Shown in pieces: positions 2,241 to 63,881 of a DNA stretch of 64,000 nt. Source of the stretch: Candidatus Rokuibacteriota bacterium (GTDB taxonomy: Bacteria > Methylomirabilota > Methylomirabilia > Rokubacteriales > CSP1-6). Position numbers and translations under genes: made by a program. The stretch's first letter is position 1. Every line of letters starts with the position of its first letter. Below the pieces are notes generated by a model, which searched no databases, was not told where the DNA came from, and worked only from the letters and a program-made list of their open reading frames with translations. Location of the stretch: NCBI GenBank assembly GCA_016200085.1, contig JACQFL010000050.1, positions 1 through 64,000 of the forward strand, in the 5' to 3' direction.

Positions 2241-4604
<2,364 letters not shown>

Positions 4605-37779: not shown

Positions 37780-37854
37780 GCCGGGGTAGCTCAGAGGCAG
37801 AGCAACTGATTCGTAATCAGTAGGTCGCGGGTTCGACTCCCGCCCCCGGCTCCA
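37780..37854 (+). tRNA. tRNA-Thr (anticodon CGT)
   Basis: A 75-base cloverleaf with acceptor stem GCCGGGG/CCCCGGC, D arm with AGCTCAGAGGCAGAGC, anticodon stem-loop ACTGATTCGTAATCAGT (anticodon CGT), T arm CGGGTTCGACTCCCG, discriminator T and encoded CCA. It reads ACG. Its 3' 45 bases are duplicated at 55821-55865. Confidence 0.96.
37810..37854 (+). repeat. attL-like direct repeat (3' part of tRNA-Thr)
   Basis: These 45 bases, from the anticodon loop to CCA, are identical to 55821-55865 and in the same orientation. This is the usual footprint of site-specific integration at a tRNA 3' end. Confidence 0.8.
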
Positions 37855-37894
37855 GTTGAATGGCCAACCGGAGCCTGTCAGTAGGAATGAGAGC

Positions 37895-38655
37895 GTGCCG
37901 TGCAAGGCCAGTCAGCGCTGCCGGTGAAAGTCCGGTCCAAGGAAGTGTCGGTACACCTTGGTAGCTACCCGGGAGACGGCGAGGGCGACCGACCCGTCGA
38001 AGCCTCGGGAACAGAGATCCGCCTTGGGCGGGTCAGCGAGCGTACGGGCCGCAACGCGAGTGAAGCCTGAGCAGGCCCCGAAAGGTTGAATGCGAGCGCC
38101 GAGTCTCCTCTCATTGGACGAAGGCCGCCGAGGCGATCGGATCTACCGACGCGGGAAGATCGCTCGGCTCGCCGGGGTAGTGGGCGCAGCACGTACGCAC
38201 GCGGTGACTGGCAACACGGGAGGCCTGTTGCGCGGCCGGGGCGACCCGGCACCGGGTCCCTTCGGGGGATGGGCGCGGCAGGCGCCGGAGGGGCCCAGAG
38301 TACCGCTGAAGCGGGGTAACGCCCGTGGAGGGAAGGGGCCCTGGTTCGGGGCGCGCTCGGCCGAGCCGAGGGGAGGGGGATTGGCGTGAGCCTGGCAACC
38401 CCCGCGAACCTCCGGAGGCTCCAACGGGCGCTGTACGTGACGGCCAAGCGGGATCCAGCGCGGCGGTTCGATGTCCTGTACGACAAGGTGTGGCGTGAAG
38501 ACATCCTCGCCCACGCATTCGCGCTCAGCCGGAAGAACGGGGGCGCGCCGGGCGTGGACGGGGTGACCTTCGCCCAGATCGAGGCGTACGGCGTGGCCCG
38601 CTGGCTGGGCGAGCTGAGGGAGGAGGTTCGAACAGGACGCTACACCCCGCAGCCT
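37895..38655 (+). mobile_element. Truncated group II intron (5' part)
   Basis: The segment has the conserved look of a bacterial group II intron domain I: GGTGAAAGTCCGGTCCAAGG, TTGGTAGCTACCC, CGAAGCCTCGGGAACAGAG, CGCAACGCGAGTGAAGCC and ATTGGACGAAGGCCGCCGAG. It is followed by the first part of a reverse-transcriptase gene. Domains V and VI are not seen; homology ends near 38655, so the intron is 3'-truncated and inactive. The 5' end at about 37895 (GTGCCG) is approximate. Confidence 0.75.
38386..38655 (+). pseudogene. Group II intron reverse transcriptase, N-terminal fragment
   Basis: About 90 residues from a GTG start match the RT0/RT1 region of LtrA-type maturases: RFDVLYDKVWREDILAHAFA, then NGGAPGVDGVTF and TGRYTPQP. 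The expected catalytic segments, including YADD and the maturase domain, are missing; the frame continues to 38871 only as unrelated residues. Confidence 0.8.
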
Positions 38656-47370: not shown

Positions 47371-49708
47371 GCTCCCCTGGCTCGGCGCCAGCGTGAAGCG
47401 GAAGGAGGACGACCGCCTCCTCCGCGGCAGCGGCCGCTTCCTCGACGACGTCGAGGAGACGCTCGCCCTCCACCTGGCCATCGGCCGCTGCCCGTACCCG
47501 CACGCGCGCATCCGGCGCATCGATGCGGCGCGCGCGCTCGAGCTGAGCGGCGTCGAGACCGTGCTCATCGGCGAGCAGGTTGTGGCGCGGACGGAGCCGA
47601 TCACGGTCCTGCGCCCGTTTCCCGGCTCGGCGCCCACCGTCTTCCACGGGATGGCGCACGGCGTCGCGCGCTATGAGGGCGAGCCGGTGGTGGCGGTGGC
47701 GGCCGTCGACCGCTACGTGGCCGAGGACGCGCTCGAGCTGATCGACGTCGACTACGAGCCGCTGCCCCACGTCATCACCGTCGAGGACGCGCTCCGGCCT
47801 GGGGCCCCGCAGCTCCACGCCACCGTGCCGGGAAACGTCGTCGTCGAATCGACCGTGCGCGCGGGCGAGCCGGACAAGCGGCTGGCCGACGCGGCCGTGA
47901 CCGTCGACGGCACCTTCCGCATCAACCGGGTGAGTGGCGCGCCGATCGAGACGCGCGGCGTGATCGCGCGCTGGGCGGAGGACACGAGCACGCTCGAGCT
48001 GTGGGCCTCCACGCAGACGCCGCACCTGCTGCGCGCTCAGCTCGCGCACTGCCTGCGCATGGACGAGACCGACGTGCGCGTGATCGCGCCGGACGTCGGG
48101 GGCGCCTTCGGCCTCAAGATCGGCGTCTACCCGGAGGACATCATCGCCGCCCTGCTCGCCATCGACACGCGGCGCCCGGTGAAGTGGATCGAGGACCGCA
48201 CGGAGTTCTTCCGGGGCGCCGCCCACGCGCGCGAGGCCGTCCACGCGCTGACGATCGGGGCCGACCGCGACGGCGCGCTGCTCGTGCTGCGCGACCGGTA
48301 CCTGATCGACCTCGGCGCCTATCACGGGCCGCTGGGACCGCCGCTGCTGACCAGCATCATGCTCGCCGGGCCCTATCGCCTCCACGACGCCGAGATCCAC
48401 CGCCGCGTCGTGCTCACCAACAAGGTGCCCATGGGGGCCTACCGCGGCTACGGGCAGGCCGAGTCGAACTACGTGCGCGAGGTCCTCGTCGACCGGCTCG
48501 CGCGCCGCCTGGGGCAGGATCCCGCCGACTTCCGGCGCCGCAATCTCTTGCGGCCCGACGAGCTGCCGTTCAAGAACGTCAGCGGCGCGACGTACGACAG
48601 CGGCGACTACGCGCGCGGCCTCGAGCGGGCGCTCTCGCGCGTGGGATACGAGACGTTCCGCACGCGACAGAAGGCGTGGCGGCAGCAGGGGCGCCACGTC
48701 GGCGTCGGCATGTCGTGCTACGTGGAGTTCACCGGCTATCCGTCCTCCGCGTTCCTCGGCCGCACTGGCGCGCGCTTCGGCGCCTACGAGAGCGTGACGC
48801 TGCGCATGGACCGGGCCGGGCGCGCAGCCCTCTCCACCGGCGTCTCGACCTTCGGGCAGGGCACGGAAACGACCTTCGCCCAGATGGCGGCCTCGCTGCT
48901 GGGGCTCGATCCCGTCGACGTCGCGATTCACCGCGGCGACTCGCAGGGCACGCCGTACAGTGTCGGCGGCTTCGCGAGCCGCACGATGATCGCGGGCGCC
49001 GGCGCCATCGAGAAGGCGGCCGGCCAGATCCGGGACAAGATGCTGCGGATCGCGGGCCATATCCTCGACGTCGACCCCGCCGCGCTCGAGGCGACCGCCG
49101 GCATGATCCGCCGCCGCGACGATCCGTCCGTGCAGGTCTCGATCCAGCGGGTGTCGGAGGCCGCCTTCCTGGGCCATCCGCTGCCGCCGGGCGAGGACCC
49201 GGGGCTGGAGGCGACGGCCTACTTCGATCCGCCGTCGTCGGCGTTCGGGTACGGCACGGTGGTCGCGCAGGTCGAGGTCGACGCGCGCAGCGGCGAGTTC
49301 GCGCTGCAGCGCTACATCCTCGTCCACGACTGCGGCACCCAGGTCAACCCGATGATCGTCGAGGGCCAGGTGCAGGGCGCGGTGGCGCAGGGCATCGCGG
49401 CCGCGCTGTTCGAGGAGCTCGTCTACGACCGCGAGACGGGGCAGCTCGTCAACGGGACGATGGTCGACTACTTCATGCCGACGGCGGCGGATCTGCCGGC
49501 CTTCGAGCTGGACCACCTGGAGACGCCCTCGCCGGTGACGCCGTTCGGCATCAAGGGCGTGGGCGAGGGCGGCACGATCGCGGCCGCGGCCGCGATCACG
49601 AACGCCGTCTGCGACGCGCTGGCGCCCTTCGGCGTGGATCTGGACCGGTTGCCCGTCACGGCGGAATCGATCTGGCGCGCGCTCGCCGGCGCGCGCGCGA
49701 AAGGATAG
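47363..49708 (+). CDS. Molybdenum hydroxylase large subunit (xanthine oxidase family), set 1
   Basis: A 781-residue molybdopterin-cytosine-dinucleotide-binding subunit. It starts MDKLPWLGASVKRKEDDRLL; Moco contacts include DVGGAFGLK, GAYRGYGQAE, and the C-terminal catalytic glutamate in GIKGVGEGGTI. The active-site loop reads AYRGYG, not the AYRCSFR of form I CO dehydrogenase, so CO is not the expected substrate; an aromatic or heterocyclic compound or aldehyde is more likely. ATG at 47363 overlaps the 2Fe-2S gene. Confidence 0.93.
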   Translation: MDKLPWLGASVKRKEDDRLLRGSGRFLDDVEETLALHLAIGRCPYPHARIRRIDAARALELSGVETVLIGEQVVARTEPITVLRPFPGSAPTVFHGMAHGVARYEGEPVVAVAAVDRYVAEDALELIDVDYEPLPHVITVEDALRPGAPQLHATVPGNVVVESTVRAGEPDKRLADAAVTVDGTFRINRVSGAPIETRGVIARWAEDTSTLELWASTQTPHLLRAQLAHCLRMDETDVRVIAPDVGGAFGLKIGVYPEDIIAALLAIDTRRPVKWIEDRTEFFRGAAHAREAVHALTIGADRDGALLVLRDRYLIDLGAYHGPLGPPLLTSIMLAGPYRLHDAEIHRRVVLTNKVPMGAYRGYGQAESNYVREVLVDRLARRLGQDPADFRRRNLLRPDELPFKNVSGATYDSGDYARGLERALSRVGYETFRTRQKAWRQQGRHVGVGMSCYVEFTGYPSSAFLGRTGARFGAYESVTLRMDRAGRAALSTGVSTFGQGTETTFAQMAASLLGLDPVDVAIHRGDSQGTPYSVGGFASRTMIAGAGAIEKAAGQIRDKMLRIAGHILDVDPAALEATAGMIRRRDDPSVQVSIQRVSEAAFLGHPLPPGEDPGLEATAYFDPPSSAFGYGTVVAQVEVDARSGEFALQRYILVHDCGTQVNPMIVEGQVQGAVAQGIAAALFEELVYDRETGQLVNGTMVDYFMPTAADLPAFELDHLETPSPVTPFGIKGVGEGGTIAAAAAITNAVCDALAPFGVDLDRLPVTAESIWRALAGARAKG

Positions 49709-62611: not shown

Positions 62612-63142
62612 TCAGAGCGTGCAGGCCGGCCGTTCGAGGTCGAGCACCATGACGAGACGGCCGAAGCCGATGTACTGGCCGATCATCATGCCCAGCTCGA
62701 CGATCTGGGCGTCGGTGAACTGAGCACGCAGAGCGCGGAAGAAGTTATCGTCGATCGCGTGGTGGCTCATTGCCATGAGCTCGGCAAAGCGGAGCGCGAT
62801 CTTTTCCTGCGCCGTGAAGGCGTCGCTCTCCTGATAGGTGTCCAACGCAGCGATCTTTTCTTCGGTCAAGCCCTGTTGCATCGCCGATGCAAAACGCCCA
62901 CGCTTTCAGGTGAAGCAGTTGTTGAGCTGCGCGATCCTCAGACGGACGAGCTCTTTGAGCACGGGCTCCACCGAGCCGCTGGTATGCCAGGGAAAGTAGA
63001 ACTGGAAGTAGGCCTGGAGCATCTCAGGGCAGTGTCCCAGGACCTGGAACATGGTAGCCTGCCCAGTCACTGCCGCGCGCGCGACGTGTTTCGCGAATTC
63101 CGGAGTGAGCTGATTTCTTTCCAAGACACTGAGACGCGACAT
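62612..63142 (-). CDS. AhpD/carboxymuconolactone decarboxylase-family selenoprotein (UGA read as Sec)
   Basis: Two in-frame halves separated by one TGA (62906-62908) together give one complete CMD-family protein of 176 residues. The joined active site reads LNNCFT-U-KRGRFASAM, so the normal C-x-x-C of AhpD-like thiol peroxidases is C76-x-x-U79. Flanks fit the family: ELVRLRIAQLNNC before and GLTEEKIAALDTYQES after. A SECIS-like hairpin follows the UGA at the right distance. ATG 63142 has a perfect GGAGGAG site; 14 more codons are open upstream. Likely a peroxide-reducing redox enzyme. The alternative is a nonsense pseudogene. Confidence 0.82.
62876..62892 (-). promoter_or_regulatory. Bacterial SECIS-like hairpin
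   Basis: Minus-strand TTGCATCGGCGATGCAA: a perfect 7-bp stem with apical loop GGC. Twenty bases separate the UGA from the first loop G, within the range known for bacterial SECIS elements, and the loop starts with the expected GG. Confidence 0.75.
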
Positions 63143-63224
63143 GTACTCCTCCTTCGAGGTGAATGCCGATTTCGTGACCGGCAAGGCGCCGAAGCCACTC
63201 GACGAAGGTCCTCACCGTCATATG

Positions 63225-63881
63225 TTAGAGAAGAGCCGGCAAGTCGGTAAGATCACGAATCTCGAAGTCGGGCTGTGGCACGTCCGGCCGGCGCCGTCGA
63301 CCATTGCGGTTGACCCACACGACCCGCAGGCCGGCCGCCTTCGCGCCCTTGACGTCGTCCACGTCGCTGTCGCCGACGTGCAGAACTTCATTCGGTCGGA
63401 GGCCCAGGTGTTCCAGCGCTCTCTGGAACACGAGCCGATGCGGCTTGTAGGCGCGCACCGTCTCGGAGACGAGAATGAACCGGACGGGCAAGGCGAAGTT
63501 CCAGGCGGCGACGTGTTCATGATCGGCATTGGAAACAATCGCGGATGGTATCGGCCCGAGCGCGTTCAACACCGCGAGCGTTTCCGGGTACAGCTCCACC
63601 GTCGTCGTCACCTGAAAGAAAAGGTCGACGTACGGGGCCGCATCAGCGATGACACCACACTGTTGCAACACGCGCGAGAGAACCTGCCCCTGGATCTCTC
63701 TGAGCGTCCGGAACGCCGACGATTGCGTCGCCTCGTGGTAGAGATCGATCCAGGACCGGTACACGTCCTCGATGCGCACAGGCAACCCGTGATCGGCCAC
63801 GATACGTCGAGGGATCAGCATCAGACCCTCGTTGCGCAGTAGCGTGCCGTAGGCGTCAAAGGTCACGGCTTTGACAGGCAT
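63225..63881 (-). CDS. HAD-superfamily hydrolase
   Basis: A 218-residue HAD phosphatase- or dehalogenase-like enzyme. Nucleophile D in VTFDAYGTLL, SNADHEH (motif II), lysine in AYKPHRLVF, and acidic motif GDSDVDDVKGAK. It differs from the gene at 33560 in lacking the SSNAWD motif, so a phosphatase is more likely. It lies 82 bp upstream of the selenoprotein start on the same strand. Confidence 0.85.
   Translation of the reverse strand: MPVKAVTFDAYGTLLRNEGLMLIPRRIVADHGLPVRIEDVYRSWIDLYHEATQSSAFRTLREIQGQVLSRVLQQCGVIADAAPYVDLFFQVTTTVELYPETLAVLNALGPIPSAIVSNADHEHVAAWNFALPVRFILVSETVRAYKPHRLVFQRALEHLGLRPNEVLHVGDSDVDDVKGAKAAGLRVVWVNRNGRRRRPDVPQPDFEIRDLTDLPALL

Follow-up and report, generated by a model that had tools for sequence, protein, structure and literature searches.

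The selenoprotein gene and its in-frame UGA codon

The window, i.e. the complete stretch of 64,000 nucleotides that was analysed, carries a predicted selenoprotein gene of the CMD family on its minus strand, the strand having been left unstated in an earlier note on this DNA. The gene starts with the ATG at position 63142, ends with a UGA at 62614-62612 and contains a single in-frame UGA (62908-62906), which is codon 79. The locus comprises the following features:

63225..63881, minus strand: HAD-like hydrolase gene, upstream, separated from the selenoprotein gene by a gap of 82 bp; absent beside the orthologue
63143..63154, minus strand: ribosome-binding site region, AAGGAGGAGTAC directly 5' of the ATG at 63142
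62612..63142, minus strand: predicted selenoprotein gene, CMD family, 176 residues plus stop
62951..62953, minus strand: codon of Glu64, equivalent of AhpD Glu118; invariant and, as in AhpD, placed 12 residues ahead of the first motif Cys (Cys76)
62915..62917, minus strand: codon of Cys76, which opens the C-x-x-U motif; invariant in the alignment
62906..62908, minus strand: in-frame UGA, predicted Sec79 (translation and homologue alignment)
62894..62896, minus strand: codon of Arg83, corresponding to AhpD His137; invariant Arg in 34 aligned relatives
62876..62892, minus strand: putative upper stem-loop of a bacterial SECIS element, 7 bp, GGC loop at 62883-62885 (folding, covariation and published model)
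62612..62614, minus strand: terminal UGA stop (translation; UGA is also the most frequent stop in the window)

Translated with the in-frame UGA as selenocysteine (Sec), the gene reads MSRLSVLE...LRIAQLNNCFTUKRGRFASAMQQG...ERPACTL, the active-site motif being C76-F-T-U79. Translation and homologue alignment both place the single UGA exactly at the second cysteine of a C-x-x-C motif, as had been claimed in the earlier note. Its expectation that gene finders would call two short genes also holds, a standard ORF finder splitting the gene into products of 92 and 89 amino acids. One match to the Pfam domain PF02627 covers residues 39-121 and runs through the UGA (E=2e-13; 50.6 bits vs. a gathering cut-off of 23), in agreement with the claim that both halves align to the family without a gap. 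The AAGGAGGAGTAC preceding ATG1 represents a strong ribosome-binding site, and none was found before the internal ATG88. Neither a sigma-70-type promoter nor an intrinsic terminator was seen near the gene.

Conservation of the UGA codon

UGA occupies the same codon in 53 of the 56 sequences aligned across the site (window gene included), the other three having TGC. Loci with UGA were detected in six phyla (Pseudomonadota, Myxococcota, Thermodesulfobacteriota, Actinomycetota, Planctomycetota and the window's own class). The nearest orthologue (G045), from the same family as the host, is 84% identical and shares the position of the UGA. Close relatives were also examined for the other sense or nonsense changes that the earlier note named as speaking against selenocysteine, and they keep the UGA. 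According to the Nei-Gojobori comparison with G045, dN/dS is 0.228 before the UGA and 0.127 after it (dS 0.47, dN 0.060); the downstream half therefore appears to be translated and constrained. Furthermore, a count over 11 host-family genomes gave 150 CMD domains, of which 69 hold one TGA and none holds TAA or TAG.

The putative SECIS element

The predicted hairpin UUGCAUC-GGC-GAUGCAA spans nucleotides 14-30 after the UGA, the first paired base being nucleotide 14, and its first loop G is nucleotide 21, with 20 nucleotides between. The earlier description of a 7-bp stem with a GGC loop, starting 14 bases after the UGA and with the loop G 20 bases away, is thus exact in every detail. The published bacterial SECIS model allows a loop of 3-9 nt, a stem of 4-16 bp and a distance of 16-37 nt from the UGA, with a G in the first two loop positions and a minimum free energy of at most -7.5 kcal/mol (PMC13188914). 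As to the SECIS check suggested in the earlier note, the hairpin lies within all limits of this model (a GGC loop of 3 nt on a stem of 7 bp, with G as the first loop base and a distance of 20 nt) and shows covariation. The fold energy of the 44-nt stretch containing it, -12 kcal/mol, is likewise within the model limit.

For its composition the single-sequence fold energy is ordinary (z = -0.75, not significant) and did not prove a SECIS element; therefore covariation was used. In 33 distinct sequences the covariation of the hairpin was 0.731 vs. 0.192 ± 0.027 in shuffled controls, 87.4% of the hairpin cells were paired (55.8 shuffled) and 70 cells were changed on both sides (23.3 shuffled), none of 500 shuffles reaching these three values, though the shuffles ignore relatedness. 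Slid pairings, a control which keeps relatedness, also fell far short of the true pairing with 0.09-0.17 (at most 0.173). Of the 8 hairpin pairs, 2, 3 and 4 remain in the three Cys homologues. The significance of the putative element hence comes from comparison, i.e. from the shared UGA together with the covariation, and the locus provides a covarying SECIS family with Cys controls.

Selenocysteine machinery of the host genome

The host genome of the window (G000; 3.57 Mb, 57 contigs, 94.6% complete) was found to contain selA, selB, selD and tRNA-Sec, as the earlier note had supposed when it proposed that the host has Sec machinery. The tRNA-Sec (69.8 bits) was identified by ARAGORN as tRNA-SeC with the anticodon TCA (UCA). 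Approximately 1.4 kb downstream of it lies selA (SelA PF03841, E=2.5e-148), which is overlapped by 4 bp by selB (362.7 bits, winged-helix domains present). The selD gene (334.8 bits) is located on a separate contig and has one in-frame TGA within. The selD match with one in-frame TGA, at G000:C12:115796-116740 (L043), probably encodes a Sec-containing SelD. A tRNA-Sec match above the Rfam cut-off was obtained in 81 of the 99 genomes searched.

The host SelB and tRNA-Sec(UCA) would be expected to decode UGA 79 as selenocysteine, with the hairpin located 14-30 nt further downstream giving the direction.

Alternative explanations of the in-frame UGA

A dead gene or a wrong base, in which a Cys codon (TGC or TGT) had become TGA, would fit the unremarkable energy of the lone hairpin, and from TGC it takes a single base change. 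This explanation can be dismissed in view of the UGA shared with the 84% identical orthologue and with nearly all homologues, the low dN/dS past the UGA, the absence of UAA and UAG from all 69 interrupted CMD domains and the covariation of the hairpin. Two separate short genes, the second starting from ATG88 (62881), are listed as such by the ORF finder. However, the Pfam domain runs across the UGA, a strong ribosome-binding site is present at ATG1 and none at ATG88, and conservation continues without a break through codons 80-87, a stretch that would not be translated if the second half were a gene of its own; such an arrangement deserves hardly any credence.

A reassignment of UGA to a standard amino acid in the host genome would equally have the codon read as sense in this gene, but UGA serves as stop more often than any other codon among the gene-like ORFs of the window (20 of 34), and it also ends the selenoprotein gene. 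Given furthermore the presence of SelA, SelB and a tRNA-Sec with the UCA anticodon, and the alignment of the UGA position with Cys, reassignment can likewise be dismissed. Judging from the sequence comparisons, we consider it nearly certain that 62612-63142 is a genuine selenoprotein gene with predicted Sec insertion.

Fold, active site and family placement

The AlphaFold2 model of the protein is all-helical (pLDDT 90.8). Its best matches in the PDB are AhpD-like PA0269, a D. radiodurans protein and other peroxidase-related proteins (TM 0.7-0.84), followed by the debrominase Bmp8 (TM 0.78) and the AhpD of S. pneumoniae. The relay residues Glu118, Cys130, His132, Cys133 and His137 of AhpD have their counterparts in Glu36, Cys48, Tyr50, Cys51 and His55 of PA0269, a weak peroxidase (PMC3141380). 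Glu64, Cys76 and Sec79 of the predicted selenoprotein match this relay, Thr78 replaces His132/Tyr50 and Arg83 replaces the His, so that the full Glu/Cys/Cys/His relay of AhpD is not present. The AhpD core model TIGR00778 gave 19 bits vs. a cut-off of 27.8, and the protein scores below the cut-offs of the AhpD, peroxidase-related and every other matched NCBIfam family. Because of the invariant Arg in place of the catalytic His the protein should not be called AhpD proper, and since that His is missing peroxidase activity should not be assumed. The earlier assignment as an AhpD/CMD selenoprotein thus stands at the level of the CMD/AhpD-like superfamily (PF02627), whereas "AhpD" was too specific.

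The best NCBIfam match, NF053654 (GroundWater_YciW, "YciW-related (seleno)protein"; E=3e-21), also matches all 34 aligned relatives, but with 75.9 bits vs. a cut-off of 310 the selenoprotein belongs to a related but separate subfamily. PA0269 of Pseudomonas aeruginosa (2ijc, 2o4d) has the same fold and the Glu-(11)-Cys-x-x-Cys helix hairpin, but differs in having Cys for Sec, His for Arg and a shorter N-terminus. The AhpD of Mycobacterium tuberculosis shares the redox motif and the Glu position; however, it is without Sec and has His137. Bmp8 shares the AhpD-like fold and is a Cys enzyme solved with brominated pyrrole. A testable contrast is offered by the Sec/Arg and the Cys/His type of active site, both of which occur in this fold.

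Possible function and gene neighbourhood

The product would be an all-helical protein of 176 residues, CMD/AhpD-like and with C76-x-x-U79 as its redox pair. Sec79, at the second motif position like Cys133 of AhpD, may attack an oxidised substrate (a peroxide, a disulfide or some other electrophile), Cys76 would resolve the product by forming a Se-S bond, and a donor of the thioredoxin or lipoamide type may reduce the pair again. The low pKa of a selenol might lessen the need for the His-based proton relay of AhpD, which would fit the Arg83 found in place of His. However, the three Cys relatives carry the same Arg. The fold and the redox motif support a thiol/selenol redox enzyme, and a role of the reductase or peroxidase type is therefore probable. 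The protein may conceivably act as a peroxidase or as an AhpC adaptor, while the assignment of any one substrate class would be doubtful.

No ahpC adjoins the gene; 16 AhpC/TSA domains occur elsewhere in the genome. No conserved neighbours were evident between the two closest orthologues, and no substrate was indicated. What recurs around the gene in other phyla is limited to loose catabolic genes (luciferase-like monooxygenase, thiolase, nitroreductase).

These neighbours, the HAD-like gene upstream, the fold match to Bmp8 and the replacement of the AhpD His by Arg would agree with a reductive dehalogenase-like or other electrophile-detoxifying enzyme in which Sec79 attacks a halogen or other electrophile and Cys76 resolves, as opposed to a peroxidase or AhpC adaptor. 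While compatible with the gene being a selenoprotein gene, this function seems distinctly unlikely, since the linkage to the HAD gene is not kept in the orthologue and other AhpD-like folds are at least as close as Bmp8. A broader proposal would combine two parts, namely that the Arg-type CxxU proteins are a distinct group in which Sec and the invariant Arg replace the AhpD Cys/His relay and which acts on electrophiles (organohalides, quinones) and not as AhpC adaptor, and that CMD proteins have become a main, expanded selenoprotein class of the lineage; taken jointly we regard it as speculative and rather unlikely. The thiol/selenol redox enzyme of less specified substrate is the function we favour.

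Evolution and distribution

The window gene is paired with G045 in the tree, close to Sec proteins of Gammaproteobacteria and Myxococcota, other genes of the host family being placed elsewhere. The distribution of the gene in the host family is patchy, and horizontal transfer is possible. Cys is found at the position of Sec79 in PA0269 and in the three Cys homologues (L023, L028, L030), which are nested within Sec clades under a midpoint root. On that root the sequences suggest a Sec-to-Cys change in one or two events, possibly with loss of the hairpin. SelB exceeded the cut-off in 17 of the 21 Sec hosts, several MAGs being incomplete. The idea that Cys versions are confined to hosts without SelB failed, since SelB passes the cut-off in two of the three Cys hosts.

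Selenoproteins of the CMD type with a CxxU motif were described in 2005 and 2008 (PMC1088965, PMC2398784), in accordance with the earlier note, which had mentioned AhpD-like selenoproteins from metagenomes. The Sargasso Sea set contained four sequences of CMD domain-containing CxxU selenoproteins (PMC1088965), and the GOS data 70 sequences of "AhpD-like 2" selenoproteins, which were commoner in nonmarine samples (PMC2398784). By their published descriptions they share with the present protein PF02627, Sec at the second position of CxxU and a bacterial SECIS element, but come from another lineage. PMC13188914 cites a MAG of Methylomirabilota for which 63 selenoproteins were predicted. Genes for particulate methane/ammonia monooxygenase (PF02461), observed in another family of the host's class, make Methylomirabilota the probable phylum of the host as well. 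Both the kind of protein and the selenoprotein richness of Methylomirabilota are thus already published, and what is new is a further member in a lineage rich in selenoproteins. The locus represents a clear case of a predicted selenoprotein that standard annotation would split, and the same error must affect many genes of the lineage because nearly half of the sampled CMD domains carry UGA.

Further observations in the genome and the window

Six more CMD domains with one TGA were detected in G000:

C3:46210-46449 (L083)
C35:35169-35405 (L084)
C2:45707-45952 (L086)
C29:4285-4431 (L090)
C15:15517-15729 (L091)
C22:5888-6070 (L089)

In five of the six a hairpin follows a CxxU motif; two of these five, on C35 and C29, adjoin a second CMD domain without TGA, apparently forming tandem-domain proteins. 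Among the 16 AhpC/TSA (peroxiredoxin/thioredoxin-like) domains in G000, six have a single TGA and none has TAA or TAG; the genome is therefore probably rich in selenoproteins.

When the window was scanned for further genes of the CxxU/UxxC type, a single additional match emerged, at 48039, in a seemingly noncoding frame as judged by eye. A TPP riboswitch barely over the Rfam cut-off was found at 3945-4055 on the minus strand. At 37780-38059 a tRNA-Thr is closely followed by a match to group II intron D1-D4 (99.8 bits), which suggests an intron adjoining a tRNA gene.
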